Assembly: GCF_011758765.1 (NCBI RefSeq)
Contig: NZ_JAANOU010000001.1
Coordinates: 5,394,001 to 5,458,000, forward strand
Length of the DNA: 64,000 nucleotides
Origin: Amycolatopsis viridis
GTDB taxonomy: Bacteria; Actinomycetota; Actinomycetes; Mycobacteriales; Pseudonocardiaceae
Direction: 5' to 3'
Shown: in pieces, positions 13,297 to 56,996 of the stretch
Layout of the letters: every line of letters begins with the position of its first letter
Numbering within the stretch: the first letter of the stretch is position 1
The notes under the pieces: generated by a model
The model's database searches: none
What the model saw: only the letters and a program-made list of their open reading frames with translations
What the model was told of the DNA's origin: nothing
Translations under genes and position numbers: made by a program

Positions 13297-14061
13297 ATGA
13301 CCGAACGGATTGTGACCGAGCGGCACGGCGGGGTCGCCGTCGTCACCGTCGACGCCCCGGCGCGGCGGAACTCGCTCACGGTGGCGCTGTCCACCGAGCT
13401 CGCCCGGGCGGTCGGCGAGGCGGAACGGGACACGAAGGTGCACGCGCTGGTCGTCACCGGGACGCCGCCGGCGTTCTGCGCCGGTGCCGATCTCACCACG
13501 CTGGGCAGTGCGCGGGAGGAGGGCCTGCGGGCGGTCTACGCGGGCTTCCTGGCGGTGGCCCGGTCCACGCTGCCGACGATCGCGGCGGTGGGCGGCGCGG
13601 CGGTCGGCGCCGGTCTGAACCTCGCGCTCGCCGCGGACGTCCGGCTGGCCGGGCCGCAAGCGAAGTTCGTCCCGCGGTTCCTCGAACTCGGCCTGCACCC
13701 GGGCGGTGGGTTCACCTGGATGTTGCAACGCGCGGCGGGCATCCAGCGGGCGCGGGCGATGACGTTGTTCGGCCAGTCCCTCGACGCGGCCGCGGCCGAG
13801 GCGGCCGGCCTGACCCTGGGTACCGTGGACGGCGGCCACGACGACCTGCTGGCGGCGGCGCTGGAGCTGGCGGCACCGGCGGCGGAGGCGCCCCGGGACG
13901 TCGTGCTCGCCACGAAGTCCTCCCTGCGGCAGACCTCGACCATGGCCGAGCATTCCCGTGCCGTGGACACCGAGATCGAACCGCAGCTGAAGTCCCTGGA
14001 TTCGCCCGCGTTCGCGGACCGGCTCGCCGCGATGCGGGCAGCGATCAGCCCGGCGAAGTAA
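13297..14061 (+). CDS. Enoyl-CoA hydratase/isomerase family protein
   Basis: 254 residues with the crotonase fold. CAGADL near residue 66 and GAAVGAGLNLALAAD near 104 form the two halves of the oxyanion hole that stabilises CoA-thioester enolates. By eye alignment, the two glutamates of classical hydratases are not at their usual places: the segment before HPGGG reads FLELGL, and the later position is alanine. It may therefore be an isomerase or hydrolase variant. The gene starts 7 bp after the Lrp regulator and may share its message. Substrate unknown. Confidence 0.85.
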   Translation: MTERIVTERHGGVAVVTVDAPARRNSLTVALSTELARAVGEAERDTKVHALVVTGTPPAFCAGADLTTLGSAREEGLRAVYAGFLAVARSTLPTIAAVGGAAVGAGLNLALAADVRLAGPQAKFVPRFLELGLHPGGGFTWMLQRAAGIQRARAMTLFGQSLDAAAAEAAGLTLGTVDGGHDDLLAAALELAAPAAEAPRDVVLATKSSLRQTSTMAEHSRAVDTEIEPQLKSLDSPAFADRLAAMRAAISPAK

Positions 14062-43692: not shown

Positions 43693-44100
43693 ATGATCAT
43701 CTACGGCTGGCGCAAGAGCGTCCAGGACCTGGCCACCGCGACCTACCTGTGCGGGAACTGCCAGAACCCCAGCGCGCACGCCCTGCGCCGGGCGGTCACG
43801 AAGTTCACGCTGTTCTTCATCCCGCTGTTCCCGATCAGCTCGAGGTACTTCACCGTCTGCACCTTCTGCGGCATGACCAACAAGCTGACCAAGCAGGAGG
43901 CGCAGCAGGTCCAGGCCATGCAGCAGGCGCAGCCGCCGGCCGGCTACCCGCAGCAGGCCTATCCGCAGCAGGCCTATCCGCAGCAGGCCTATCCGCAGCC
44001 CGGGTATCCGCAGCAGCAGCCACAGCCCGGCTACGTGCCGCAACCGCAGGTGCAGCAGTACCCGCAGCAGCAGATCCAGCCGCCGCGGCAGGGCTTCTAG
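43693..44100 (+). CDS. Zinc-ribbon protein with YPQQA repeat tail
   Basis: 135 residues. The first 75 form a zinc ribbon (CGNCQN ... CTFCGM) around a hydrophobic stretch (TKFTLFFIPLFPI), resembling the zinc-ribbon family found widely in actinobacteria. The tail is Pro/Gln/Tyr-rich with tandem YPQQA units encoded by 15-bp repeats. The tail may mediate protein contacts. It overlaps the convergent gene by 4 bp. Function unknown. Confidence 0.82.
   Translation: MIIYGWRKSVQDLATATYLCGNCQNPSAHALRRAVTKFTLFFIPLFPISSRYFTVCTFCGMTNKLTKQEAQQVQAMQQAQPPAGYPQQAYPQQAYPQQAYPQPGYPQQQPQPGYVPQPQVQQYPQQQIQPPRQGF
43948..44007 (+). repeat. 15-bp tandem repeats inside the zinc-ribbon gene
   Basis: Three near-identical copies of TATCCGCAGCAGGCC (the first with TACCCG) and a degenerate fourth lie in frame and encode YPQQA. 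Because the unit is a multiple of three, copy-number change would lengthen or shorten the tail without frameshift. Confidence 0.8.
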
Positions 44101-44660
44101 CGCGCCACGCGGTAGCGGAGGTAGACCACGTCCGAGCTGACGGTGCGGGTCTCGACGAGGTCGAGATCCGCCCGGCGCCCGTGCTGCGGGAAGAACGGGA
44201 TGCCGCCGCCCACCAGCACCGGGTAGACCCTGGCCCGGTACTCGTCGATCAGGCCCGCCGCGGCCACCTCGGCGGCGAGGGTCGCGCCGCCGATCGCGAT
44301 GTCCCCGTCCCCCGGCTCGGCCCGCAGCCGCTCGATCTCCTCCGCCACGCCGCCGGTGGCCAGGCGCGCGTTGCCCCGCACCTCCCGCAGCGTGGTGGAG
44401 AAGACGACCTTGGGGAGCGCGTTCCAGACCCCGGCGAACTCGAGCTCCGCGTCGTCGAGGGACTGCTCCTGCTCGGCGGTCTCCCAGTACAGCATCGTCT
44501 CGTACAGCCGCCGTCCCATCAGGTGCACGCCGACCCCGCGCACCTCGTCGAGGGCGAGACGGAAGACCTCCTCGGTCGGGACGCTCCAGTCGAAGGAGCC
44601 GTCCGGCCCGACGATGTAGCCGTCCAGTGAGATGGCCATCGAGTAGGTCACGCTGCGCAT
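44097..44660 (-). CDS. Dihydrofolate reductase-like (RibD C-terminal fold) protein
   Basis: 187 residues. YSMAISLDGYI at the N-terminus and GGATLAAEVAAAGLIDEY near residue 123 are hallmarks of the RibD_C/YyaP-type reductases; LMGRRLYETM follows the pattern of the NADPH-binding strand. The protein probably binds NADPH, but no substrate is known for most family members. It overlaps the convergent zinc-ribbon gene. Confidence 0.87.
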   Translation of the reverse strand: MRSVTYSMAISLDGYIVGPDGSFDWSVPTEEVFRLALDEVRGVGVHLMGRRLYETMLYWETAEQEQSLDDAELEFAGVWNALPKVVFSTTLREVRGNARLATGGVAEEIERLRAEPGDGDIAIGGATLAAEVAAAGLIDEYRARVYPVLVGGGIPFFPQHGRRADLDLVETRTVSSDVVYLRYRVAR

Positions 44661-44681
44661 CGGGCCCCCGGGTGGTCGGAT

Positions 44682-45176
44682 TCAGCCGGATTTGACCGGG
44701 GCGTCGTCGTCCACAACGGCGACCTCCGGTTCCGCCGGTACGGCGCGGCGCAAGCGGTGCCGCATGCCCCAGGACGCGGCGCCCGCGACCAGCCAGGTGA
44801 CCAGCACCGTCAGGCCCAGCGGCAGCAGGGTGAGCGTCGCGGTGCGGCCGGCCACCCGCGCCAGATCCGGATCCGTCGCGTCGTATTCGATGCGCACCAG
44901 ATCACCCGCGACCAGCCCGCTCGGGTAGAGCACCCCGTTCGACGGGATGTGCACGATGCCGTCCGGGGTTTCGAAGCGGATGATCGTCCGGTCCCACGTC
45001 ACCGCGTCGACCTCGGCCGTCGCCGTGCCCAGGTGGCCGGTGATCGCCTCGTCGTTGCGGATCGCGGCCAGCAGCAGCCCGGCGCACAGCACGGTGATCA
45101 CGACGGCGACGGCGAGCACGCAGCGACGGCCGATCTTCAGCCACCACAGACTCCTCGCCGTCACCCGTCCGAGCAT
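44682..45176 (-). CDS. DUF3592-type membrane protein
   Basis: 164 residues with two transmembrane helices (about 18-38 and 117-138). Between them is a beta-rich extracytoplasmic segment (IRFETPDGIVHIPSNGVLYPSGL region, near 68-90) of DUF3592 type. The equivalent position near menD and mgtA in M. tuberculosis also holds a small membrane gene (Rv0556). Function is not known. The next gene upstream starts 12 bp away and may be co-transcribed. Confidence 0.82.
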   Translation of the reverse strand: MLGRVTARSLWWLKIGRRCVLAVAVVITVLCAGLLLAAIRNDEAITGHLGTATAEVDAVTWDRTIIRFETPDGIVHIPSNGVLYPSGLVAGDLVRIEYDATDPDLARVAGRTATLTLLPLGLTVLVTWLVAGAASWGMRHRLRRAVPAEPEVAVVDDDAPVKSG

Positions 45177-45188
45177 AGAAGGTGCGGG

Positions 45189-46688
45189 TTAACGGCTTCC
45201 CCCGGCCGCCAGGAGCCGGTGCGTCCGCTCGATCGACGGGTACGACTCCGGCTGCGCGGCGCTGCGCAGCGTGACCGTCCCGTTCGGCCCGGTGGCCGGT
45301 TTGCCCGCGGTGAACAGCCACGTCTGGAACAGCTGGCGCAGCGGTTTGCCGGAGACCTGCTCGGCCAGCGCGACGAAGTCGCTGATCCGGGCGTCGCCGC
45401 CCCGGTGCTGCGCGACCCACCCGCGCAGGATGGCGAAGAACGCCTCGTCCCCCACCGCGGTGCGCAGCGCCTGCACCGCCATCGCGCCGCGGTCGTACAC
45501 CGCGTCGTCGAACTGCGCGGCCACGCCCGGGTCACCCGGCAGGACCTGCCAGAACGGCGCGTCCGCCGGGTGGGAGTCGTAGGCGTACTGGGCGAGCTCG
45601 GCGGCGGTGCCCTCGCCCTGGTGCTCCGACCACAGGTACTCGGCGTAGCTGGCGAAGCCCTCGTTGAGCCAGATGTCGCTCCACCGGCCCAGCGATACGG
45701 AGTCGCCGAACCACTGGTGGGCGTTCTCGTGCGCGACGACCGAGGTGTTCGCGCCCGAGACGAAGAACTTGGTGCTGTACACCGGCCGCGTCTGCGCCTC
45801 GAGCGCGAAGGTCAGGCCGGTGCTGACCACGCCGCCCTCCGCCTCGAACGGGTACGGGCCGAACTGGCTCGCCAGGAACCCGACGATCTCCGGCGTGCGC
45901 TCGACACTCGCCTTCGCCGCGGCCAGCGACTCACCCGCGGACGGGTCGTACGCGGTGGTGAACGGCTTGCCGTCCGGGGTCGCGGACTGGTTCACCTCGA
46001 ACTTGCCCACCTCGAGCGTGGTGGCGTAGGTGTTCTGCGGCTGCGTGCTGCGCCAGTTCCAGCGCGTCCAGCCGGCCCGCTGCTTGGTCTTGCGGACGAG
46101 CGTGCCGGTGGACAGGGCAGCGACGTCGTCGGGCACCTCGACGGACACGTCGTAGGTGGCCTTGTCCGTGGGGTGGTCGTCGGACGGGTACCACCATTGG
46201 GCGTTCTGCGGCTCGTCGACGGCGAGGGCACCGTCCGGGGTCTTCTTCCAGGCCGTGTAGCCGTCGATGACGACCTTGGACGGCGTGTCGGCGTAGGTCA
46301 CGACGACGGTGATGGGCTGGTGCTTCGCCAGCGGCCGGACCGGGGTGACCTCCAGCTCGCCCGGCCGGGTCACGCGGAAGGCGGCGGGTGCGTTGTTCAC
46401 CCGGATGGAGCTGACTTGCAGGCCGAAGTCCAGGTCGAAGCTGGTGAGCTCCTGCGTGGTGGTGGCGAGGATGGTCGTGGTGCCGGCGAGCTGGTCGGTG
46501 GCGGGCTGGTAGGTCAGGCGGATGTCGTAGTGCGCGACGTCGTAGCCGCCGTTGCCGGCGTACGGGTAGTAGGGGTCGCCGGCGCCGGGCGCGCCGGGCG
46601 CGGGCGCGGCACTGGCGGTCGAGGCGAGCAGAACGGTCGCCAGTCCGGTCGTCACGGCCCCCAGGCCGGCGCGAGTTCGCAAACGCAT
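45189..46688 (-). CDS. Secreted M1-family zinc metallopeptidase
   Basis: 499 residues. The first 27 form a Sec signal peptide ending ASTASAAPAPG. The zinc motif HENAH is at about residue 318 with the third ligand Glu in NEGFASYAEYLW. An aminopeptidase-type exopeptidase motif (a GxMEN element) is not obvious, although the region before the zinc site is GGVVSTGLTF. It is shorter than aminopeptidase N, containing only the N-terminal beta domain and catalytic domain. It acts outside the cell. The 357-bp region upstream holds the repeat array. Confidence 0.9.
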   Translation of the reverse strand: MRLRTRAGLGAVTTGLATVLLASTASAAPAPGAPGAGDPYYPYAGNGGYDVAHYDIRLTYQPATDQLAGTTTILATTTQELTSFDLDFGLQVSSIRVNNAPAAFRVTRPGELEVTPVRPLAKHQPITVVVTYADTPSKVVIDGYTAWKKTPDGALAVDEPQNAQWWYPSDDHPTDKATYDVSVEVPDDVAALSTGTLVRKTKQRAGWTRWNWRSTQPQNTYATTLEVGKFEVNQSATPDGKPFTTAYDPSAGESLAAAKASVERTPEIVGFLASQFGPYPFEAEGGVVSTGLTFALEAQTRPVYSTKFFVSGANTSVVAHENAHQWFGDSVSLGRWSDIWLNEGFASYAEYLWSEHQGEGTAAELAQYAYDSHPADAPFWQVLPGDPGVAAQFDDAVYDRGAMAVQALRTAVGDEAFFAILRGWVAQHRGGDARISDFVALAEQVSGKPLRQLFQTWLFTAGKPATGPNGTVTLRSAAQPESYPSIERTHRLLAAGGSR

Positions 46689-46785
46689 GCGGCGACGCTA
46701 GCCGGAAAACTCCGCACCGGACACGGCCGAAAGATGGTTCCTCCCCACTGGAAACGGCTGGCCGCCGCAACCGCGTCGCCGACCA

Positions 46786-47038
46786 GCCAACTCACCGCCC
46801 GCAAGAGCCAACGCGCCACCCGGAAGGGCAAACACGCCGCCCCAATTAGCAAACACGCGCGCACCCGGCGTGTTGGCCACTCCCGGCGCCGTGTTTGCCA
46901 CTCCCGGCGGCGTGTTCGCCCCTCGCGGCGCCGTGTTCACCACTCCCGGCGCCGTGTTGGCCACTCCCGGCGCCGTGTGCACCGCTCGCGGCGGCGTGTC
47001 GGCTGCGCCGGGGCGGCGTGTTGGCTGCGCCGGGGCGG
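46786..47038. repeat. Intergenic 21-bp-phased convergent repeat array, copy 1
   Basis: Four units starting GCCAAC or GCAAAC (46786-46869) are followed by eight units starting CGTGTTGGCC or variants (46869-47038). The period is exactly 21 bp, becoming 22 in the last two. The second set is the reverse-complement orientation of the first (GCCAACACG against CGTGTTGGC). The core of each unit is conserved and the rest varies. It fills most of the gap between the M1 peptidase start and the menD stop. No frame across it looks like a gene. Confidence 0.85.
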
Positions 47039-47045
47039 CTGCGGG

Positions 47046-48710
47046 TCAGGAGAGGGCGGTGGAGACCGCGGTGCGGATGCGGGCGTGCAGGTCGCGGTGG
47101 CGCGAGCGGTCCACCTGCACCTCGACGACCCGCAGCCCGGGCGCGGGCCGGAGAGCAGCGCGGAACTCGTCGATCGTGCCGGCGAGCACGTGCGGGACAT
47201 CGAAGCCGCTGCACAACGCTGCCAGGTCTGCGCCGTGCGGGGTGCCGAACACGTGCTCGAACGAGTCGCGGTGCTCGGGCGCGCCCTGCTCCAGCAGCGA
47301 GAAGATCCCGCCGCCGTCGTCGTTGAGCACCACGATCGTCAGGTCCGGCCGGGTGCTCGCCGGGCCGGCCAGCAGACCGTTGATGTCGTGCAGGAACGTC
47401 AGGTCGCCGAGCAGGGCGTAGGAGGGGCCGCGGTGCACCGTCGCCGCGCCGATCGCCGTGGACACCGTGCCGTCGATGCCCGCCACCCCGCGGTTGCGGT
47501 GCACCAGCACGTCCGGGCGCATGCGGCCGGCCAGCGCCACGTCCCGCGCCGGGTTCGACGAACCCACCACCAGCAGCGCGTCCGGCGGGAGCGCGTCGAC
47601 CAGCTCGGACGCCAGCCGCAACCCACTGGGCCACTGTTCCTGCCGCAACGCCCGGTCCACCGCCGCGTTCGCCAGGCCGTCCGCACGCTGCCACGCGGCC
47701 AGCCAGTCCGGGTCGGCCGGTTTGGTCGGCGAGTCGAACCACTGCCCGACCTGCCGCACGTTGTGCGCCGGTGCCGGCCAGTCCGAATCGGGCCGGACCA
47801 GCAGCACCTCGACGTCGGCGTCGGACAGCAGCTGCTGGATCTGGCGGAACACCGTCGGCCGGCCCAGGCACAGCACCTGCTCCGGCTTGTGCCGCCGGAT
47901 GAACTCCTCGGCGCCGAGCAGCCACACCCCGGACGAGATCGCCGACGACCCGAGCAGGCCCAGTCCCCCGGTCTCCGAGATCACCGGCCAGCCGTGCTGC
48001 TCACCCCATTCGCTCGCCGCGCGGACCCCGCTGTCGCACGCCACGACCAGGCCACAGCGCGCCGACGGCACCACGAACGACGGCAGCGCACCGAAGTCGG
48101 GCAGCTCGGTCCACCGCTCCCCGCCGGGCCTGCCTTCCAGCGACTCGTACCACTCGTCGTCGCCGTCGGGCACCAGCGGTTCACGGAACGGCACGTTCAG
48201 GTGCACCGGGCCGCAGCGCCACTCGCCGTAGGCGGCGTTCCACGCCCGGCAGATCTGGCTGCGCCAGTACGCGTTCTGGCCGCCGCGCCGCTCGGCGACG
48301 GCCAGCTCGTCGAAGTAGCGGACCGCGTTGCCGTACAGCCGCTGCTGGTCGATGACCTGGTTGGCGCCCGCGGCGCGCAGCTCGGGCGGGCGGTCGGCGG
48401 TGAGCACGATCAGCGGGACCCCGGCCCGGTCCGCTTCCAGCACGGCAGGGTGGAAGTTCGCCGCCGCGGTGCCGCTCGTGCACACGACGGCGACCGGGCG
48501 TCCGGTGCGCGCGGCGATGCCGAGCGCGAGGAAACCGGCGCCCCGCTCGTCGATGCGGACGTGCAGCTGGAGCCGCCCGGCCGCGGCAGCGTCGTGCAGC
48601 GCCAGCGACAGCGGCGCGTTGCGGGAGCCGGGGCACAGCACGACGTGCGAGACGGTGTTGCGGACGAGTTCGTCCACGATGACCTTGGCCTGCGCGGTCG
48701 ACGGATTCAC
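47046..48710 (-). CDS. menD: 2-succinyl-5-enolpyruvyl-6-hydroxy-3-cyclohexene-1-carboxylate synthase
   Basis: 554 residues. CPGSRNAPLSLAL (near residue 26) and DERGAGFLALG (near 54, with the catalytic Glu) are the MenD thiamine-diphosphate signatures. NDDGGGIFSLL near residue 460 is the ThDP/Mg site. It joins isochorismate and 2-oxoglutarate-derived succinic semialdehyde in menaquinone synthesis. It starts with GTG and is divergent from menB, with 57 bp between start codons. No menF, menC or menH is visible in this window. Confidence 0.93.
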   Translation of the reverse strand: MNPSTAQAKVIVDELVRNTVSHVVLCPGSRNAPLSLALHDAAAAGRLQLHVRIDERGAGFLALGIAARTGRPVAVVCTSGTAAANFHPAVLEADRAGVPLIVLTADRPPELRAAGANQVIDQQRLYGNAVRYFDELAVAERRGGQNAYWRSQICRAWNAAYGEWRCGPVHLNVPFREPLVPDGDDEWYESLEGRPGGERWTELPDFGALPSFVVPSARCGLVVACDSGVRAASEWGEQHGWPVISETGGLGLLGSSAISSGVWLLGAEEFIRRHKPEQVLCLGRPTVFRQIQQLLSDADVEVLLVRPDSDWPAPAHNVRQVGQWFDSPTKPADPDWLAAWQRADGLANAAVDRALRQEQWPSGLRLASELVDALPPDALLVVGSSNPARDVALAGRMRPDVLVHRNRGVAGIDGTVSTAIGAATVHRGPSYALLGDLTFLHDINGLLAGPASTRPDLTIVVLNDDGGGIFSLLEQGAPEHRDSFEHVFGTPHGADLAALCSGFDVPHVLAGTIDEFRAALRPAPGLRVVEVQVDRSRHRDLHARIRTAVSTALS

Positions 48711-48754
48711 CGGGCACCGCCCGGCGTGTCACCCGTCACCACAGTCACACGGCC

Positions 48755-48760
48755 TATTCT
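48755..48760 (+). promoter_or_regulatory. -10 element for leaderless menB mRNA
   Basis: TATTCT (TANNNT pattern, close to TATAAT) ends 7 bases before the menB GTG at 48768. There is no ribosome-binding site. Transcription probably starts at the GTG. Confidence 0.5.
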
Positions 48761-48767
48761 CCCAAAC

Positions 48768-49691
48768 GTGCATGACGCCCGCGTTTCCGAGCTGTTCGAC
48801 CCGTCCGCCTGGACCGAAATCGAGGGTTTCGGTTTCACCGACATCACCTATCACCGTTCCGTCGAGGCTCGCTCCGGCAAACGCGTCGTCCGCGTCGCGT
48901 TCGATCGCCCCGAGGTTCGTAACGCCTTCCGCCCGCACACCGTCGACGAGCTGTACCGCGCTCTCGACCACGCGCGGATGAGCTCGGATGTCGGCTGTGT
49001 CCTCCTGACGGGGAACGGTCCCTCGCCGAAGGACGGTGGGTGGGCGTTCTGTTCCGGTGGTGACCAGCGTATTCGCGGTCGGTCCGGGTATCAGTACGCG
49101 AGCGGCGAGACCTCCGACACCATCGACCCGGCGCGGGCCGGGCGCCTGCACATCCTCGAGGTCCAGCGGCTGATCAGGTTCATGCCGAAGGTGGTGATCG
49201 CGGTGGTCCCGGGCTGGGCCGCGGGTGGCGGGCACTCGCTGCACGTGGTGTGTGACCTGACGCTCGCCTCCGCCGAGCACGCCCGGTTCAAGCAGACCGA
49301 CGCCGACGTGGGCTCGTTCGACGGCGGGTTCGGCTCGGCCTACCTGGCGCGCGAGGTGGGCCAGAAGTTCGCGCGGGAGGTTTTCTTCCTGGGCCGTGAG
49401 TACGACGCCGAGCAGATGCACCGGATGGGCGCGGTGAACGCGGTGGTGCCGCACGCCGAGCTGGAGGCCGAGGCGCTGCGGTGGGGCTGGGAGGTCCTCG
49501 GCAAGTCGCCGACGGCGCAGCGGATGCTGAAGTACGCGTTCAACCTCATCGACGACGGGCTCGTCGGCCAGCAGGTCTTCGCGGGGGAGAGCACCCGGCT
49601 GGCGTACATGCAGGACGAGGCCGTCGAGGGCCGGGACGCGTTCCTGCAGAAACGCGACCCCGACTGGTCGGCCTTCCCCTACTACTACTGA
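48768..49691 (+). CDS. menB: 1,4-dihydroxy-2-naphthoyl-CoA synthase
   Basis: 307 residues, crotonase family. FCSGGDQRIRG near residue 88 and PGWAAGGGHSLHVVCDL near 146 form the oxyanion hole. The MenB-specific DADVGSFDGGFG segment and the C-terminal WSAFPYYY end are present. It cyclises O-succinylbenzoyl-CoA to the naphthoate ring. GTG at 48768 begins the natural N-terminus HDARVSELFD; the frame stays open far upstream but without coding character. menE follows after 7 bp. Confidence 0.94.
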   Translation: MHDARVSELFDPSAWTEIEGFGFTDITYHRSVEARSGKRVVRVAFDRPEVRNAFRPHTVDELYRALDHARMSSDVGCVLLTGNGPSPKDGGWAFCSGGDQRIRGRSGYQYASGETSDTIDPARAGRLHILEVQRLIRFMPKVVIAVVPGWAAGGGHSLHVVCDLTLASAEHARFKQTDADVGSFDGGFGSAYLAREVGQKFAREVFFLGREYDAEQMHRMGAVNAVVPHAELEAEALRWGWEVLGKSPTAQRMLKYAFNLIDDGLVGQQVFAGESTRLAYMQDEAVEGRDAFLQKRDPDWSAFPYYY

Positions 49692-49698
49692 GGTCACC

Positions 49699-50847
49699 GT
49701 GCGCGAGGTCTGGCTGCGGGGTCCGGAGTCGATCGACGAGCTGGCCGGGGCGGTGGCCGCGGCCCTGGACGGGGGCGAGCCGGTGCTCCCCCTGGACGGC
49801 CGCGATCCGCAGGCCGCCGGGCTGCTCGCCGCGATGCGACCGGACCAGCCGGTCGAGGACGGCACGGCGGTGCTCATCGCGACCTCGGGATCCACCGGTG
49901 AGCCCAAGGGCGTCCTGCTCTCCGCCGACGCGTTGCGGGCGTCCGCCACGGCCACCCACGCCCGGCTCGGGGGTGCCGGGCGGTGGCTGCTCTCGACCCC
50001 GGCGAACTACATCGGCGGGCTGCAGGTGCTGGTGCGGTCGATGCTCGCCGGGCAGCCGTTCGCGGTCCTGCCGCCCGGCCCGTTCCGCGCGGACCGCTTC
50101 GCCGAGGCCGCCCGGCCGGTGCTCGTCGCGGACGGGCCGCGGTACACCGCGATGGTGCCGACCCAGCTGACCCGCCTGCTCGACGCCGGTGGCCCGGGGC
50201 TGGCGGCGGCGAAGGCGTTCGACGCGATCATCCTCGGCGCCGCCGCGACCACCCCGGCCCTGCGTGCCCGCGCGGCCGAGGCCGGGGTGCGGATCATCCC
50301 GTCCTACGGGATGAGCGAGACCGCCAGCGGGTGCGTCTACGACGGCGTACCGCTCGACGGGGTCGGGGTGCGGATCGCCGCCGACGGGCGCGTCCTGATC
50401 GCCGGGCCGGTCCTGACCCACGGTTACCGGCTGCGGCCCGACCTGACCGCGGAGTCGTTCGACGGCGAGTGGTTCCGGACCGGGGACCGCGGACAGCTGC
50501 GCGACGGTCGTCTCGAAGTGCTCGGCCGCCTCGACGACGTGATCAACACCGGTGGGGTGAAGGTGTCCGCGGCAGCGGTGGAACGCCTGATCACGGCTCT
50601 GCCCGGGGTGCGGGAGACGTGTGTGGTCGGGCTGCCGGACCCGGAGTGGGGCCAGATCGTGGCCGCCGCGGTGGTACCCGAGGGCGAGGCGCCGGGCGTG
50701 GCCGAGCTGCGGGCCGCGGTCCGCGCCGAGGCGGGCGCCGCGGCCGTGCCGAAGCGGGTCGAGTTCGTTACCACACTCCCGCTCCGCGGACCGGGCAAAG
50801 TCGACCGGACGGCAGTCGTCGACCAGATTTTTCCCCCGGTTGGTTGA
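49699..50847 (+). CDS. menE: o-succinylbenzoate-CoA ligase
   Basis: 382 residues, short for the acyl-CoA ligase superfamily but normal for actinobacterial MenE. The P-loop ATSGSTGEPKG is near residue 56, SYGMSETASGC near 200, FRTGDRG near 259, and the C-terminal GPGKVDR carries the adenylating lysine. It activates O-succinylbenzoate with ATP and CoA for MenB just upstream. The GTG start is 7 bp after menB. Confidence 0.93.
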   Translation: MREVWLRGPESIDELAGAVAAALDGGEPVLPLDGRDPQAAGLLAAMRPDQPVEDGTAVLIATSGSTGEPKGVLLSADALRASATATHARLGGAGRWLLSTPANYIGGLQVLVRSMLAGQPFAVLPPGPFRADRFAEAARPVLVADGPRYTAMVPTQLTRLLDAGGPGLAAAKAFDAIILGAAATTPALRARAAEAGVRIIPSYGMSETASGCVYDGVPLDGVGVRIAADGRVLIAGPVLTHGYRLRPDLTAESFDGEWFRTGDRGQLRDGRLEVLGRLDDVINTGGVKVSAAAVERLITALPGVRETCVVGLPDPEWGQIVAAAVVPEGEAPGVAELRAAVRAEAGAAAVPKRVEFVTTLPLRGPGKVDRTAVVDQIFPPVG

Positions 50848-50872
50848 CATCTGGCGCGGTCCGCCTTTGAGT
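50844..50872 (+). promoter_or_regulatory. Promoter for the small secreted protein gene
   Basis: A perfect TTGACA (50844-50849) and TTGAGT (50867-50872) are 17 bp apart, and the ATG at 50879 is 6 bases further. It is the best -35/-10 pair in the window and predicts a leaderless message. The -35 overlaps the menE stop. Confidence 0.55.
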
Positions 50873-50878
50873 TACCCA

Positions 50879-51019
50879 ATGAGATCGCTGCAACGTTTCC
50901 TCGTCGCGGCCATCGGCGCCGTGCTCGCCGTCTTCGCGGTCGCCGGCACGGCGACGGCCGTTCCGCCCCGGCCCGACTCCGGCACACTCACCTGGTCCGT
51001 CCCGGTCACCGGGGAGTAG
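50879..51019 (+). CDS. Small secreted protein (46 residues)
   Basis: A basic N-terminus (MRSLQR) is followed by a hydrophobic core (FLVAAIGAVLAVFAVAG) and TATAVPP, a good Sec signal peptide with cleavage after ATA. The mature peptide would be only about 19 residues, Pro/Thr/Ser-rich with no cysteine. A consensus promoter sits directly upstream. No family is recognised. It may instead be a leader peptide of menA, whose ATG is 24 bp downstream. Confidence 0.5.
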   Translation: MRSLQRFLVAAIGAVLAVFAVAGTATAVPPRPDSGTLTWSVPVTGE

Positions 51020-51043
51020 ACGGTTTCCGCTTGAATTGCAGTC

Positions 51044-51916
51044 ATGGCGACTGTGACGGAATGGATCGAGGGGGCCCGCCCCCGGACGCTGCCGAACGCG
51101 GTGGCGCCGGTGGTGGCGGGCGTGGGGGCGACGATCCAGCTGGGGGCCTTTTCGTGGTGGCAGTCCCTGCTCGCCCTCCTGGTGGCGCTGGCGCTGATCA
51201 TCGGCGTCAACTTCGCCAACGACTACTCCGACGGCATCCGCGGCACGGACACCGACCGGGTCGGTCCGCTGCGCCTGGTCGGCTCCGGTGCCGCGGCACC
51301 GAAACTCGTGCTCGCGGCGGCCCTGACCTCCTTCGGCGTGGCCGGCGTGGTCGGGCTGGTGCTGGTCGCGGCCACCGGCCGGTGGTGGCTGATCGCGGTG
51401 GGCGCGGCGTGCATCCTCGGCGCCTGGTTCTACACCGGCGGCCGCAAGCCCTACGGGTACGCCGGGCTCGGCGAGGTCGCGGTGTTCATCTTCTTCGGGC
51501 TGGCCGCGGTGCTCGGGACGGTGTACGTGCAGGCCGGCCGGATCAGCTGGGAGGCGCTGGGGGCCGCGGTGGCCGTGGGGTGCTTCTCGATGGGCGTGCT
51601 GGTGGCCAACAACCTGCGGGACATCCCGACCGACCGGGTGGCCGGCAAGGTGACGCTGGCCGTCCGCCTGGGCGACGCCGGCACGCGGCGCTTCTACCTG
51701 GCGCTGATCGCGGTGCCGTACGTGGTGACGCTGCTGCTGGCGATCGGGCACCCGCTGCCGTTGATCGCCCTGGTGACCGCGCCGCTGCTGCGGACCCCGG
51801 TGCGGGCCATCACCAGCGGCGGCACCGGCCCGCGGCTGATCCCGGTGCTGAAGGACACCGGGCTGGCGATGCTGGGGTGGTCGTTGCTGACGGCGATCGG
51901 GCTCGCGGTCAGCTGA
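51044..51916 (+). CDS. menA: 1,4-dihydroxy-2-naphthoate polyprenyltransferase
   Basis: 290 residues, eight to nine transmembrane helices. [17 protein letters not shown] (near residue 57) is the UbiA-family aspartate-rich motif; a second, [14 protein letters not shown], is near residue 188. It attaches the polyprenyl tail (probably from the diphosphate synthase at 18874-19899) to dihydroxynaphthoate in the membrane. The start codon follows the small secreted gene by 24 bp. The 3' end overlaps the convergent PLP-enzyme gene by 8 bp. Confidence 0.94.
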
Positions 51917-52988
51917 CCCACTTGCCGGTGGCCAGGAACTCCTCCATCCGCGCGGTGTGCGGGGCCAGGTCGAAGCCCTGCTCGGCGATCCACTCGTCGT
52001 TGTAGTAGGTGTGCGCGTACCGCTCGCCACCGTCGCAGATGAGGGTCACCACACTGCCCACCTGACCCGCTTCGAGCATGCCGGCGATGATCTCGAACGC
52101 CGCGTACAGGCTCGTGCCGGTCGAGCCGCCCGCCCAGTGCCCGGTGCGTTCCCGCAGCAGCCGGATCGCCGCCATGGACGCGGCGTCCGGCACCCGGATC
52201 ATGTGGTCGATGACCGTCGGCACGAAGGACGGCTCCACGCGCGGCCGGCCAATGCCCTCGATCCGCGACGGCATGCCGGTCGTGTAGTCCAGCGCGCCGG
52301 TTTCCCACGCGCCGTAGAACGACGAGTTCTCCGGATCGGCCACCGCGACCTTCGTGGTGTGCCTGCGGTACCGCACGTACCGGCCGAAGGTCGCGCTCGT
52401 CCCGCCGGTGCCCGCGCCCACCACGATCCACGACGGCACCGGGTGCCGTTCGGCACGCATCTGGGCGAACACGGACTCCGCGATGTTGTTGTTGCCGCGC
52501 CAGTCGGTGGCCCGCTCGGCGTAGGTGAACTGGTCGAGGTAGTGGCCGCCGCACTCGGCGGCGAGCCGTTCCGCCTCGCTGTACATCGCGGACGGGATGT
52601 CGACGAAGTGGCACCGGCCGCCGTAGAACTCGATCAGTTCGATCTTCTCGCGGCTGGTCTTGCGCGGCACCACGGTCACGAAGTCGAGCCCGAGCATGCG
52701 CGCGAAGTACGCCTCGGACACAGCGGTCGAGCCGCTGGACGCCTCGATCAGCGTGGTGTCCGGCCCGATCTGGCCGTTGACCAGCCCGTACAGCAGCAGC
52801 GACCGGGCCAGGCGGTGCTTGAGCGAGCCGGTCGGGTGCACCGACTCGTCCTTGAGGTAGAGGTCCACGCCCCATTCCGGCGGGAGCGGGAAGCAGTGCA
52901 GGTGGGTGTCGGCGCTGCGGTTCGCGTCGGCCTCCAGAAGCCGGATCGCCTCGCGCACCCACGCCCTACTCGCCGGCGGCATCTTCAC
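51909..52988 (-). CDS. PLP-dependent cysteine synthase-fold enzyme (Cds1-like)
   Basis: 359 residues of PLP fold type II. The Schiff-base lysine is K57 in [20 protein letters not shown] binds the substrate carboxylate, and [14 protein letters not shown] is the phosphate loop. The close actinobacterial relative in M. tuberculosis (Rv3684, Cds1) is an L-cysteine desulfhydrase that releases H2S, and this protein has the same overall layout. A cysteine-synthase role is the alternative. The GTG at 52988 overlaps the DUF4229 stop by 23 bp; ATG at 52982 is also possible. Confidence 0.85.
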
Positions 52989-53247
52989 CCCGCAGCTGGG
53001 CGCGCAGCTTGGCCCGCTCCCGCGCGCGGTGCTCGTTGCGCGCCGCGAGGCCGGCGGTGACCCGCGCGTTCAGCTTGCGGAAGACGAGCAGGCCGACCGG
53101 CAGCCCGACCACGACGCCGACGGCCACGGCGACCAGCAACGGCACCTTCACCAGCACGAGCACGGCCGCCACGACGACGATCAGCCCGAACCGCGCGAGC
53201 AGGTAAAGCGTCAGGTCGCGGCCCAGATGGGTACGGGTCTCGCTCAC
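52966..53247 (-). CDS. DUF4229 small membrane protein
   Basis: 93 residues. Two adjacent hydrophobic helices (about 14-36 and 38-57) are followed by a highly charged Arg/Glu/Ala-rich tail predicted to be helical. This is the DUF4229 pattern, found near menA and ccs genes in many actinobacteria. Function unknown. GTG start; co-transcription with the PLP enzyme is likely given the overlap. Confidence 0.83.
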
Positions 53248-53258
53248 GTCTGAGGAGC

Positions 53259-53732
53259 CTACGCGCCGGACCGCGGCGGATCTTCGAGCACCGTGTTGTT
53301 CGGCCGTCCCTCGAACCGGGTCGACAGCACCACGGTGGTGCGGGTGCGGGCCACCCCGCCGATGCGGCGCAGCCGGCCGAGGGTGTGCTCCAGCTCGTCG
53401 ACCGTGGGCACGCGGACCTTGACCACGAACGCCTCGTCGCCGGCGACCGCGTAGCAGCTCTCCACCTCGGGCAGCGCGCCCAGCTCCTCGGCGACCTCGT
53501 TGTCGTCCGCGGTGTCGGTCGGCTGGATGCCGACCAGTGCGGTGACGCCGAGGCCGACGGTGCTCGGGTTGACGGTCGCGTGGTAGCCGGTGATCACCCC
53601 GGCCGCCTCGAGCTTGCCGACCCGCTCGTGCACGGACGAGGCGGCCAGCCCCACGGTGCGGCCCAGCTCCGCGTAGGTGGCCCGGCCGTTCAGGCGCAAC
53701 GCGGCGATGATCTTGCGGTCCAGCGCATCCAC
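53259..53732 (-). CDS. Lrp/AsnC-family transcriptional regulator
   Basis: 157 residues. An N-terminal HTH (MDALDRKIIAALRLNGRAT, then LGRTVGLAASSVHERVGKL) is followed by the RAM ligand domain (VGIQPTDTADDNEV region). The GTG at 53732 gives the standard start. Its upstream DNA contains the second repeat array, so array and promoter are close or overlapping. It is distinct from the first Lrp at 12843. Targets are unknown. Confidence 0.9.
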   Translation of the reverse strand: MDALDRKIIAALRLNGRATYAELGRTVGLAASSVHERVGKLEAAGVITGYHATVNPSTVGLGVTALVGIQPTDTADDNEVAEELGALPEVESCYAVAGDEAFVVKVRVPTVDELEHTLGRLRRIGGVARTRTTVVLSTRFEGRPNNTVLEDPPRSGA

Positions 53733-53766
53733 GCGGTTCAGACTAGGCGGCGCCCGCCCGGCACCG

Positions 53767-53994
53767 CCGGAACGGCCAACTCACCACCCGGAACGCCCAA
53801 CTCACCCCCGGGAACGGCCAACACGGTGCCCGGAGCGACCAACACGCCGCCGCGAGCGCCGGCCCCGCCGTGTTTGCCGCTGGGCGCGCCGTGTTTGCTC
53901 GGGTGGGCGGCGTGTTTGCCGCTGCGGGCGGCGTGTTTGCTCGGGTGGGCGGCGTGTTTGCCGCTGCGGGCGGCGTGTTTGCCGGTGTCCGGGC
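53767..53994. repeat. Intergenic 21-bp-phased convergent repeat array, copy 2
   Basis: Four or five units with the core AACGGCCAAC (53767-53868) are followed by six units beginning CGTGTTTGC (53869-53994), all at exactly 21 bp. Units three and five of the second set are identical (CGTGTTTGCCGCTGCGGG...), as are units two and four (CGTGTTTGCTCGGGTGGG...), giving an ABAB pattern. As in copy 1 the orientation flips once in the middle. It lies between the divergent Lrp and bldC genes. Confidence 0.85.
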
Positions 53995-54350
53995 CGGCTC
54001 GGGTGGGCAGGGGTCACGGCGTGCGCAGCGGGACATCACGCACGTATCAGTCGTGCAGGACGCCGCCCTCGATCTCGCGCGCCTGCACGAGCTCAGCCAG
54101 GTGGTGTCCGTCGCCCAGTACTCGTTGGGCGCCCCGTTCGTGCACCCCATCCGGTTGGCGCGCGGGGTGGTTTCCGGTGCGCACCGGGGTGGCAGCGGGC
54201 GCGCGCGGCGTGGGCGTTTTGTCCCTTACTACCTCTTTACCTATCGACAACCGTTCGAGTACCTGGCGGGTGAAGTGCCACGATTGCCGCGTTGATGAGA
54301 CCGGGGCTCCGGCCTCCGGTTTAGCAGTGTGGTCGTGAAGGAGGCGGAAA
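53995..54350. other. Non-coding stretch upstream of bldC
   Basis: About 356 bp after the repeat array. The open frames across it show no protein family or plausible start. Its AT-richer part (54215-54260) holds a promoter-like pair. A long bldC leader or an unrecognised small RNA is possible, but nothing more can be supported. Confidence 0.5.
54219..54247 (+). promoter_or_regulatory. Candidate bldC promoter
   Basis: TTGTCC (54219-54224) and TATCGA (54242-54247) are separated by 17 bp, in the only AT-rich part of the region. A start here would give a leader of about 97 bases before bldC. Confidence 0.3.
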
Positions 54351-54560
54351 ATGACCGCGAGCACGGGAGGGCGCCTGCTGACGCCCGGCGAAGTCGCCGC
54401 GTTGTTCCGGGTGGACCCGAAGACCGTGACCCGCTGGGCGACCGCGGGCCGCATCGGCTCGATCCGCACCCCCGGTGGGCACCGGCGGTTCCGGGAGTCC
54501 GAGGTCAACGCCCTGCTGGCCGAGCTCACCACGGACGCCAGCGAGCCGACACGGGTCTGA
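54351..54560 (+). CDS. bldC: BldC-type MerR-like DNA-binding protein
   Basis: 69 residues, nearly a single winged helix-turn-helix. LLTPGEVAALFRVDPKTVTRWA, then GRIGSIRTPGGHRRF are the BldC core. In Streptomyces BldC binds DNA as head-to-tail oligomers on phased direct repeats and times entry into development. Pseudonocardiaceae homologues are the same length. The ribosome-binding site GAAGGAGG is strong. Its own upstream DNA holds the 21-bp-phased array, which is suggestive but unproven as a BldC target. Confidence 0.9.
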   Translation: MTASTGGRLLTPGEVAALFRVDPKTVTRWATAGRIGSIRTPGGHRRFRESEVNALLAELTTDASEPTRV

Positions 54561-54696
54561 ATCGCGTGGCGCGTCCCCGCGGACCGGCTCGGACAGCCGG
54601 ATCCCGCGGGGCCCGAGCGCGTCAAGGAGAACTCACGCCCCAGGGGTTACCCTCGGGGCAGCAGTTCCGCGCCAACGCACTCGGAAGGGAGCGGGG

Positions 54697-54870
54697 ATGA
54701 TCTACCTGCTCGCAGCGATCGGAGCGCTCACCATCGCTGTCCTGTTGTGGCGAGCGTTCGGCCCCGAGCACGTCGGGGTGTCCTCGCGAGCGACGGTCCC
54801 ACCGGACGACGACCCCGAGTTCCTCCGCAAGCTGGGCCAGCAGAAGCCACCGAAGTCCGACGAGGATTGA
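54697..54870 (+). CDS. Small single-pass membrane protein
   Basis: 57 residues. One N-terminal helix (LLAAIGALTIAVLLWRAFG) is followed by an acidic/basic tail ending KPPKSDED. GGAAGGGAGCGGGG provides a ribosome-binding site. Small proteins of this shape occur beside bldC and ccs genes in related genomes. No function known. Confidence 0.7.
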   Translation: MIYLLAAIGALTIAVLLWRAFGPEHVGVSSRATVPPDDDPEFLRKLGQQKPPKSDED

Positions 54871-54897
54871 TCACCTCCGGTCACGCGCCCGCGGGCG

Positions 54898-55998
54898 TCA
54901 CCGCTTCCCGGGGAACGCGTCGGCCATGGTCGCGGCGAGTTCCAGGAGCGCCATGCGCGTCTCCGGCGTCAGGCGCTCCAGCTCGATCTCCGCGCCCTCC
55001 TCCAGGTGCGGGTCGAACGGGATCCGGCACACCGCCCTGGTCCGCGCCGCGAAGTGCGCCGCCAGCTTGTCCAGGTCGACCGAACCGGCCTTCGGTCGCA
55101 CCGAATTGATCACGGTCACCGACCGTTTCACCAGGTCACCGTAGCCGTGCGCGTCCAGCCAGTCGAGCGTGGCCGACGCGCTGCGGGAACCGTCCGCCGA
55201 CGCCGACGACACCACGACCAGCGAGTCGGCCGCGTCCAGCACGCCCTTCATCGCCGAGTGCATCAGACCGGTGCCGCAGTCGGTGAGCACGATGTTGTAG
55301 AAGTGCTCCAGCAGCGCGATCGTGCGCAGGTAGTCGCTTTCCGAAAACGCCTCCGACACCGCCGGGTCCTGCTCGCTGGCGAGGATCTCCAGCCGGCTCG
55401 TCCCCTGCGAGGTGTAGGCCCGCACGTCGCTGTAACGGGTGATCCGGTCCGCGTCCCGCAGCAGGTGCCGCACCGTGGCGGTGGTCTCGATCGGGATCTT
55501 CTGCGACAGCGTCCCGCGGTCCGGGTTGGCGTCCACCGCGATCACCCGGTCGCCGCGCAGCGCCGCGAACGTCGAACCCAGGGTCGTGGTGACGGTGGTC
55601 TTGCCGACCCCGCCCTTGAGGCTCAGCATCGCGATCCGGAAGCACCCGCGCAGCGGCTGGTTCACCCGCGCCACCAGCTCGCGCTGGCGCTGCTCCTGCG
55701 GGCTCTCCCCCGGGTTGATCAACTTGCCGGAGGCGACGTAGACCACCTTGCGCCAGCCCGACTGGGGCACCCGTTTCGGCGGCCGCACGCCCTGCTCGGG
55801 CGCGGCGTGACGCGGCCGGGAGGGCTGCGGCAGGGGCGGGTACTGGTACTGCGGCTGCCCGTACTGCTGCTGCAACGGGGGTAGGTTGGGGTCGTAGCCG
55901 GGCTGCGGGAGCGGCCGCGGCGGAGGAGGAGCCGGGTGCGAGGCGGAGTCGGTTCGTTCGTCGGAGAAGTAGGACCCGGGTTCGCGCGGCTCGGTCAT
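54898..55998 (-). CDS. MinD/ParA-like ATPase with Pro/Gln-rich N-terminus
   Basis: 366 residues. Residues 15-80 are Pro/Gln/Tyr-rich and likely disordered. The deviant Walker A motif SLKGGVGKTT is at about 126-135, and a Walker B-like DCGT near 225 with VDANPDRGTLSQKI complete the SIMIBI ATPase. Similar MinD-like proteins occur with ESX secretion (EspI-like) and, in mycobacteria, at the end of the ccs cluster (Rv0530). The ATG shares one base with the ccsB stop. Its role in cytochrome maturation, if any, is unknown. Confidence 0.87.
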   Translation of the reverse strand: MTEPREPGSYFSDERTDSASHPAPPPPRPLPQPGYDPNLPPLQQQYGQPQYQYPPLPQPSRPRHAAPEQGVRPPKRVPQSGWRKVVYVASGKLINPGESPQEQRQRELVARVNQPLRGCFRIAMLSLKGGVGKTTVTTTLGSTFAALRGDRVIAVDANPDRGTLSQKIPIETTATVRHLLRDADRITRYSDVRAYTSQGTSRLEILASEQDPAVSEAFSESDYLRTIALLEHFYNIVLTDCGTGLMHSAMKGVLDAADSLVVVSSASADGSRSASATLDWLDAHGYGDLVKRSVTVINSVRPKAGSVDLDKLAAHFAARTRAVCRIPFDPHLEEGAEIELERLTPETRMALLELAATMADAFPGKR

Positions 55999-56996
55999 CA
56001 GCCGACCCCGGCGTAGGAATGCAGGCCGGTCGTGACGAGGTTGACGAAGAACAGGTTGAACACCGTCACCGCGAACCCGAGGGTGTTGATGACCGCGGCG
56101 CGGGTTCCGCGCCAGCCGGCCGTCGCCCGCGAGTGCAGGTAGGCGGCGTAGACGACCCAGGCGATGAACGCCGTGGTCTCCTTGGGGTCCCAGCCCCAGA
56201 ACCGGCCCCACGCGGCCTCGGCCCACACGGCGCCGCACAGCACGCCGAAGGTGAACAGCGGGAACGCGAACACCGTGGTGCGGTAGGCGATGCGGTCGAG
56301 CACGTCGGCGGCGGGCAGGCGCGAGGCGAACCGGGCGAAGCGCTTCGGGTCGCGCTCGTGGGCGGTGCGGACCAGGTAGAGGATGCTGGCCACGCCGGGC
56401 ACCAGGAAGATGCCGGACGAGGTGGCGGCCGCGGATACGTGGATGACCAGCCAGTACGACTGCAACGCGGGCTGCACCGGCGCGGCCACGGTGTAGAGCA
56501 TCGTGCCGCCGACGAACATCAGGATGACGACCGGCAGCAGCAGGAATCCGGACAGGTGCCGCGCCGGGAACTTGCGGATCACCACGAGCCAGGTCACCAC
56601 GGCGATGAGCGTCACCGCCATGATGTATTCGTACATGTTCCCCCACGGCACGCGGTGGGTCGCCACGCCGCGCAACACCAGTGCGGCCACGTGCAGCAGC
56701 GCGCCCAGGACCGTGAGGGACACGCCCATCCGGCCGATGCGCTCGGCGCGGCCACGGCTCGCGCGGGCCGCTGGAGGTTCAGCCGGAGGGGTGACGGTCT
56801 CGGTGCTGCCCGGACCGCCGGCGCCGACCAGTTCGCGCGCTCGCTCCCGGGAGCGCTCGGCCGCACGGCGCCCCTTGGCACCGAAGGACTGTTCGATGAG
56901 GAAGAAGACCAGCGCCAGTACGTAGACGGCGGTCGCGGTGGTGTAGGACCAGTCGCTGTACTGGGACAACGTTGCATCAACAGCAGCGCCCGGCAT
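55998..56996 (-). CDS. ccsB: Cytochrome c biogenesis protein CcsB (CcsA family, heme lyase component)
   Basis: 332 residues, eight or more transmembrane helices. The tryptophan-rich heme-handling motif WGRFWGWDPKE is near residue 265, and conserved histidines flank it (VIHVSAAATSSG, LHSRAT). With ResB it forms the System II synthetase that delivers heme to apocytochrome c outside the membrane. The ATG at 56996 is just downstream of resB (5-bp gap). It is named CcsB/CcsA by different authors. Confidence 0.93.
   Translation of the reverse strand: MPGAAVDATLSQYSDWSYTTATAVYVLALVFFLIEQSFGAKGRRAAERSRERARELVGAGGPGSTETVTPPAEPPAARASRGRAERIGRMGVSLTVLGALLHVAALVLRGVATHRVPWGNMYEYIMAVTLIAVVTWLVVIRKFPARHLSGFLLLPVVILMFVGGTMLYTVAAPVQPALQSYWLVIHVSAAATSSGIFLVPGVASILYLVRTAHERDPKRFARFASRLPAADVLDRIAYRTTVFAFPLFTFGVLCGAVWAEAAWGRFWGWDPKETTAFIAWVVYAAYLHSRATAGWRGTRAAVINTLGFAVTVFNLFFVNLVTTGLHSYAGVG

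Follow-up and report, generated by a model that had tools for sequence, protein, structure and literature searches.

The 64,000-nucleotide stretch of DNA analyzed here (the window; positions 5394001 to 5458000) belongs to the single-contig chromosome of Amycolatopsis viridis (5,684,261 bases) and contains two arrays of 21-bp repeat units (Table 1). Array 1 lies between menD (the gene name follows a preliminary description of this DNA) and an M1-family peptidase gene, with the menD stop codon 13 bp from the end of its right half. An iterated profile scan recovered the 12 units that had been described at this site, i.e., four "<" units (reading GGCNAACACG on the + strand) followed by eight ">" units (reading CGTGTTNGCC on the + strand), and the period of 21 was also recovered by TRF. 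From left to right, the steps measure 21, 21, 21, 22 (the flip), 21 (six times), and 22 bp. The exact 21-bp period claimed previously thus holds apart from two 22-bp steps; the order of four and then eight units also stands, but the arrangement, which had been called convergent, is best termed outward (<<<<>>>>>>>>). In the printed units of the left half, the tail-type TGAGTTGGCT is outermost and CGTGTTTGCT is innermost. Array 2 is a sister array (<<<<>>>>>>) with a flip step of 33 (core gap, 22) and occupies a divergent gap between genes of the Lrp/AsnC and MerR types, the latter being a small HTH gene. Comparison of array 1 with plasmid and phage collections yielded no blastn match at E 1e-5, and a plasmid or phage origin was rejected on that basis.

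Table 1. Arrays and adjoining genes in the window
Feature	Positions	Strand	Basis
M1-family peptidase gene, 5' end adjoins array 1	45189..46688	-	ORF; Pfam Peptidase_M1 (45189-46655)
Array 1, all 12 units	46779..47032		Iterated profile scan; TRF (period)
Array 1, left half: four "<" units	46779..46862	-	Profile scan, unit print-out
Array 1, flip center AGCAAACACG-N11-CGTGTTGGCC	46848..46878	.	Flip list
Array 1, right half: eight ">" units, 21 bp, final step 22	46864..47032	+	Profile scan
menD, 3' end adjoins array 1	47046..48710	-	ORF; Pfam TPP_enzyme_N
Lrp/AsnC-type regulator gene	53259..53732	-	
Array 2, all units	53768..53989		Profile scan, TRF
Array 2, left half: four units, outer two of TGAGTTGG type	53768..53851	-	Profile scan
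Array 2, right half: six units CGTGTTTGC[CT]	53864..53989	+	Profile scan
MerR-type gene	54351..54560	+	

The pattern of array 1 is far beyond chance. The genome-wide search for cores at 21-bp phase that the preliminary description had proposed returned 278 exact CGTGTTNGCC-N11-CGTGTTNGCC pairs in the whole chromosome, while the reversed-pattern control returned 0. In a 1.264-Mb sample made up of the window and 60 stretches of 20 kb at near-even spacing, exact same-strand cores were spaced 21 bp apart in 61 cases and 12 and 18 in one case each, and no other distance below 33 occurred. Seventeen arrays (188 units) were detected in this sample with the iterated profile, which extrapolates to approximately 76 arrays per chromosome. 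Inclusion of 25 further stretches, picked because they hold CGTGTTNGCC pairs and all located within the first 2.83 Mb, raised the A. viridis totals to 45 arrays and 482 units. A subset pattern placed 69 pairs around the chromosome; the region between about 2.83 and 4.45 Mb, with four arrays, is sparser than elsewhere.

The consensus unit (GGCGG-CGTGTTTGCC-GCTCCG) spans two helical turns and consists of a conserved core of 9 to 10 bp and a drifting spacer. That only the core is well kept, as stated earlier, is borne out by departures from the consensus of 3.0% in the six most constrained core columns and 29.4% in the 11 spacer columns; the unit-finding profile favors kept core columns, so this conservation is somewhat overstated, a bias that is limited by the near absence of holes. 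When units at exact spacing are compared with their neighbors, the same columns differ in 5.2% (core) and 28.1% (spacer) of cases. Among 315 interior registers, the core (9 positions) has 0 mismatches in 190, 1 in 86, 2 in 32, and 3 in 7, and the first register beyond the array ends has 2 to 8 (median, 6), with 2 or 3 in 9 of 90 cases. Within halves, 398 of 408 steps measure 21 bp, and the ten exceptions are 12, 15, 18, 19 (three times), 20 (twice), 22, and 41; the 41-bp step is the sole hole. These values support the view that both the core and the spacing (for which selection had been suggested previously) bear signs of selection. The core is not a palindrome, and the A content of the unit strand is only 2.5%.

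Twenty-six of the 45 arrays are of the "<>" class, 16 are one-way, and 3 are "><", so that runs in A. viridis are most often joined head to head; a gap at 2.277 Mb holds two one-way arrays with opposed directions. The core gaps at "<>" flips (37 flips from three genomes) cluster near helical multiples (i.e., 2 to 3, 9 to 13, and 22 to 23 bp; Rayleigh p ~3.5e-8 at 10.5 bp, with the flips taken as independent). Of 14 positions, units within one half mismatch at 3.91 (adjacent) or 4.33 (nonadjacent); units from opposite halves of an array differ as much as units of separate arrays do (6.59 versus 6.12). A CRISPR array was considered and rejected, the spacers within a half being alike rather than unrelated.

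Each run is polar, with one core type at its head and another in its last two tail units. The preliminary description had overlooked these unit types, along with the A. thermalba core and the 21-bp pitch in related genera that are described below. Innermost units read CGTGTTTGCC, and outermost units drift to TG[T/G/A]GTTGGC[C/T] with the invariant columns kept. Across 50 halves of at least three units, G occupies column 12 in 7 innermost versus 32 outermost units, column 8 is other than T in 1 versus 19, and column 6 is other than C in 0 versus 26; the composite polarity statistic was 1.62, compared with a maximum of 0.76 among 5000 shuffles. Of the 50 outermost and 50 innermost units, 47 and 48, respectively, keep all six of the most constrained core columns intact, a result that the detecting profile favors. 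An outer-type score reaches 1.94 and 1.42 in the final two units and 0.36 to 0.60 in the next three, and it climbs again 7 to 8 units from the end (1.12, n = 8; 0.8, n = 5), where few halves are so long. The shift tracks distance from the tail and not from the center or the mirror unit: in 15 unequal arrays, the score is 2.20 in the outermost unit of the short half, 0.40 in its mirror in the long half, and 1.53 at the end of the long half, and 15 one-way arrays have the outer type at the tail (1.0, 0.73) and lack it at the head (0.2, 0.07). Since the shift follows the tail, and since belonging to the same array makes two halves no more similar than units taken from different arrays, the polar run appears to be the module, rather than a product of hairpin selection.

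A home-made codon-based gene caller assigned 88.6% of the sample to coding sequence. All 17 sampled arrays are extragenic, in agreement with the intergenic bias that had been proposed as a check, and 2 of the 45 arrays in the enlarged set overlap a called ORF (L102 over 90% of its length and L107 entirely). Of the 45, 23 lie in convergent, 18 in tandem, and 4 in divergent gaps. The 601 gaps of 50 bp or more that lack arrays comprise 83, 328, and 190, respectively; the excess of arrays in convergent gaps gives p = 2e-8. The 17 near-evenly sampled arrays are divided into 6, 8, and 3 (convergent, p = 0.025). Tandem arrays are closer to the 3' end in 15 of 17 cases, one ORF-internal array being left out. 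Divergent (i.e., promoter) gaps are avoided; array 2 is among the few exceptions, and the placement of array 1 beside menD is typical. One-way arrays between convergent genes point ">" in five cases and "<" in three. At 18154-18226 of L078, an inverted repeat (GCGAAGCCGGG...CCCGGCTTCGC) is located between an array and a gene 3' end and is partly present in genome G092 (L129); it looks like an ordinary terminator that is separate from the array.

A MenD-based search of genome contigs placed the DNA in Amycolatopsis and identified A. deserti, A. tucumanensis, and A. thermalba, at 95%, as the nearest relatives. The CGTGTT profile detected no array among 80 MenD loci of relatives. In A. thermalba, the menD-M1 gap contains about seven copies of a different 21-bp unit; inspected by eye, the A. 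deserti gap has at most one unit-like stretch and the A. tucumanensis gap has none. Exact pairs of the 14-bp A. thermalba core and of CGTGTTNGCC number 62 and 0 in A. thermalba, 0 and 8 in A. deserti, and 0 and 4 in A. tucumanensis. A wider form of the former (CGAGTCNCAC) gives 137 pairs in G130 (taken as A. thermalba) and 0 in A. viridis. The two cores share the position of a free base (CGTGTT-N-GCC and CGAGTC-N-CAC) and were for that reason taken as homologous.

The A. thermalba set comprises 31 arrays (233 units), nearly all located via the pair pattern. Its core word is different, yet pitch, polarity, and kind of placement are as in A. viridis: 181 of 187 within-half steps measure 21 bp; flips are "<>" at 20 to 22 (10 flips) and "><" at 27 to 106 (5 flips); the contexts are 17 convergent, 10 tandem, 2 divergent, and 2 contig edge; and the median gap between a stop codon and the array behind it is 8 nt. 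In 16 halves, CGAGTCCCAC stands at the head and mostly [CT]GAGTTC[TC]GC at the tail, a polarity reached by 2 of 3000 permutations. Twelve of the 31 arrays had a flank in the sampled A. viridis sequence (nine had both), and five of the nine comparable A. viridis gaps carry a CGTGTT array (the menD-M1 gap and four more), while four do not. A null test was applied to eight gaps, the ninth being dropped for overlapping A. viridis genes. A strict within-stretch null gave 3.18 expected (P = 0.07), a value that reflects the choice of many sampled stretches for their arrays; a rough genome-rate estimate (hand-worked mean, ~1.2; Poisson) gave P = 0.007, or 0.03 without menD. Positional orthology between the two species is suggestive only.

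The 21-bp pitch extends to related genera. Within the 80 MenD loci, 642 noncoding 7-mers are repeated at lag 21 (41 loci), compared with 24 to 100 (15 to 31 loci) at ten other lags, and period 21 accounts for 23 of 62 noncoding versus 6 of 56 coding tandem-repeat rows (at least 2.8 copies). In the proposed search of the Pseudonocardiaceae, 23 of 297 family genomes have the CGTGTTNGCC pair form and 18 have the CGAGTCNCAC form, some by single matches that are possibly due to chance. Neither exact pair is found in at least 256 of the 297, and presence is patchy between species. Both cores (CGTGTTNGCC and CGAGTCNCAC pairs, respectively) occur in G187 (234 and 20), G146 (17 and 12), and G081 (14 and 24), so the rule of one core word per genome is not strict. 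Among the 98 genomes of a class-wide sample, only A. viridis has the CGTGTTNGCC form. Haloechinothrix halophila has 12 arrays (60 units) that, by inspection, run from CGAGTCGCAC heads to CGAGTT/TGAGTT-type tails; its three two-ended arrays are "><". Seven species of the A. orientalis group carry 21-bp arrays of another spelling (TRF) in a convergent gap that lies some 2 kb past menD; among the 11 printed loci of this group, two more have short arrays by eye and two have none. In this group and in the three two-ended Haloechinothrix arrays, the halves face the opposite way relative to the genes; what is kept is therefore the polar run, and not its direction toward the gene. Arrays in G214 (another genus) are long and more degenerate; one with 34 units (L251, 2803-3535) has a recurring eight-unit block, i.e., a block duplication within an array. 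Longer inverted repeats were seen by eye in A. regifaucium and A. orientalis (L155 and L200, ~13700-14060) in the gap that bears the array in sister species, which gives the impression that several repeat families share gene-end gaps as hot spots.

Several explanations of the arrays were weighed. Translation as a heptapeptide repeat (Ala-Asn-Thr frame), a pattern pointed out in the preliminary description, would place the free N at the third base of a GCN Ala codon, and the Ala frame has the highest synonymous share of the six (0.426; others, 0.226 to 0.326). However, GCA makes up 44.7% of the would-be Ala codons versus 3.2% in called genes, third-position GC is 0.765 versus 0.944, 7 of the 10 steps that deviate from 21 bp are not divisible by three, and a 94-amino-acid ORF in the array has no Pfam match; translation was rejected as extremely improbable. 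Like REP/BIME or REPIN families mobilized by a RAYT transposase, the arrays are numerous, short, extragenic, often in inverted pairs, and patchy between species, and they share the convergent and 3'-end preference given for REPs in the accessible part of PMC3733652. Such an identity is nonetheless very unlikely, because the family has neither of two defining REP features (i.e., a hairpin or palindrome unit and a RAYT transposase). A hairpin inside each unit was rejected, the would-be stem having no covarying pair, and among 19 genus genomes, Y1_Tnp (PF01797) was found only in G198, which has neither core pair, and in neither A. viridis nor the array-bearing relatives (positive in 5 of 14 controls). 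The nearly constant 21-bp pitch and the polar two-word runs also set the arrays apart from REPs. An RNA element (an array transcribed as a 3' UTR and acting as a bidirectional hairpin terminator or stability element) deserves more consideration, although we judge it unlikely. It agrees with the location of arrays close behind stop codons and with predicted folding far below that of shuffles in "<>" arrays (mean z, -6.75 and -5.84; 24 arrays) and in "><" arrays (-5.60 and -4.43; 3 arrays), computed for the 40 of 45 arrays of up to 320 nt with 25 shuffles each. The 13 one-way arrays folded gave mean z values of only -1.14 to +1.27; predicted RNA hairpins thus fit two-ended arrays only. Moreover, mirror units are little complementary beyond the shared core, the tail code tracks the array end and not the mirror position, either strand may face the gene, a separate hairpin common to G092 stands beside the array at 4.48 Mb (by eye), and Rfam has no match at gathering score within 44000-56000 of the window. 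The long hairpin between halves that had been offered as one cause of the fixed spacing is unlikely, since a unit resembles its mirror unit scarcely better than it does the remaining units of the opposite half (6.42 versus 6.59 mismatches of 14) and 16 of the 45 arrays have no inverted half; the free base of the innermost pair matches in 19 of 37 flips (47% expected).

The main and strongest rival is a selfish or neutral satellite that is tolerated at gene 3' ends and grows from its head, which gains units while the tail keeps old ones; core and pitch would then persist for the copying process and not for host use. The likeness of units within a half, the difference between halves, and the patchy presence between species are in line with such a satellite, avoidance of promoter gaps would also be expected from passive tolerance, and head growth with tail survival would in part yield the polarity. 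In contrast, tail units carry a recurring word instead of random decay and retain the constrained columns (which the profile favors), spacers diverge across the interior registers without loss of the core, the clustered flip gaps are left unexplained, and array 1 has no plasmid or phage match. We consider a satellite possible but doubtful.

We favor, with a probability of roughly 45%, the reading that the arrays are sites for a putative sequence-specific, cooperatively binding protein of the Pseudonocardiaceae that would act at gene ends. A cooperative DNA-binding protein had been named at the outset, and it is retained as the leading idea only, on the basis of placement in either orientation, the helical phasing of flips, and the end-defined unit code. 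The putative protein would bind one face of the helix, start at strong head sites, extend along the run, and stop at tail sites. The resulting nucleoprotein block would most likely insulate convergent or neighboring transcription at gene ends, in that it would restrain read-through or absorb supercoiling, and the core word would change because the specificity of the protein changes. A fuller scheme, which we put forward tentatively and with less confidence than binding itself, is a dispersed nucleoprotein system of the Pseudonocardiaceae: polar 21-bp arrays at gene ends would be nucleated at the head, capped by two tail sites, and bound by a fast-evolving polymer so as to insulate convergent units, and the word would be switched between close species with pitch, cap, and partly location kept. 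Binding sites, if that is what the arrays are, would reveal a new chromosome-organizing or transcription-insulating factor in a family of major antibiotic producers, and the differing core words of close relatives provide a natural coevolution experiment for finding the protein. Should the arrays prove to be a satellite, the retention of pitch (two turns) and of an end-specific unit type despite sequence change would still be unusual for bacteria.

The arrays are filed among interspersed extragenic repeats that may work like a cooperative site array. Iterons of plasmid and phage origins are direct repeats about two helical turns apart that bind proteins cooperatively. The arrays resemble them as direct repeats at helical pitch with a conserved core but differ in their chromosome-wide number, location at gene ends, head-to-head runs, and distinct tail units, and none of the four genes next to the window arrays is a replication gene. 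Mycobacterial MIRU/VNTR loci are also intergenic tandem repeats of actinomycetes, with variable copy number and larger units; we know of no 21-bp core/spacer organization or polarity in them. As for bacterial satellites, PMC6749651 credits Amycolatopsis mediterranei with 23, its abstract assigns transposed noncoding long-repeat satellite families only to Leptospira interrogans and Methanocella conradii, and its accessible part describes tandem repeats, as found here, and no 21-bp family. Amycolatopsis orientalis NCPC 2-48 is listed with 404 tandem repeats and 325 minisatellites (PMC7852140); some may be 21-bp arrays, the available text giving no unit, pitch, placement, or function. The array family is not described in the accessible portions of these two reports or of PMC3733652, PMC4210621, and PMC4048454, and a search of titles and abstract openings, with most subscription journals outside its scope, returned no publication on it.

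A viral contig (L211, 3380-3500) matches a three-unit pattern, probably by chance; the segment looks like a coding Ala-Asn-Thr-rich repeat, apparently phage structural DNA. The left halves of two G187 arrays (L119, 530005; L120, 594830) are near identical, and the single BLAST match between them (87.9% over 553 bp) takes in the flank too, which points to duplication of a segment rather than transposition of the array alone.
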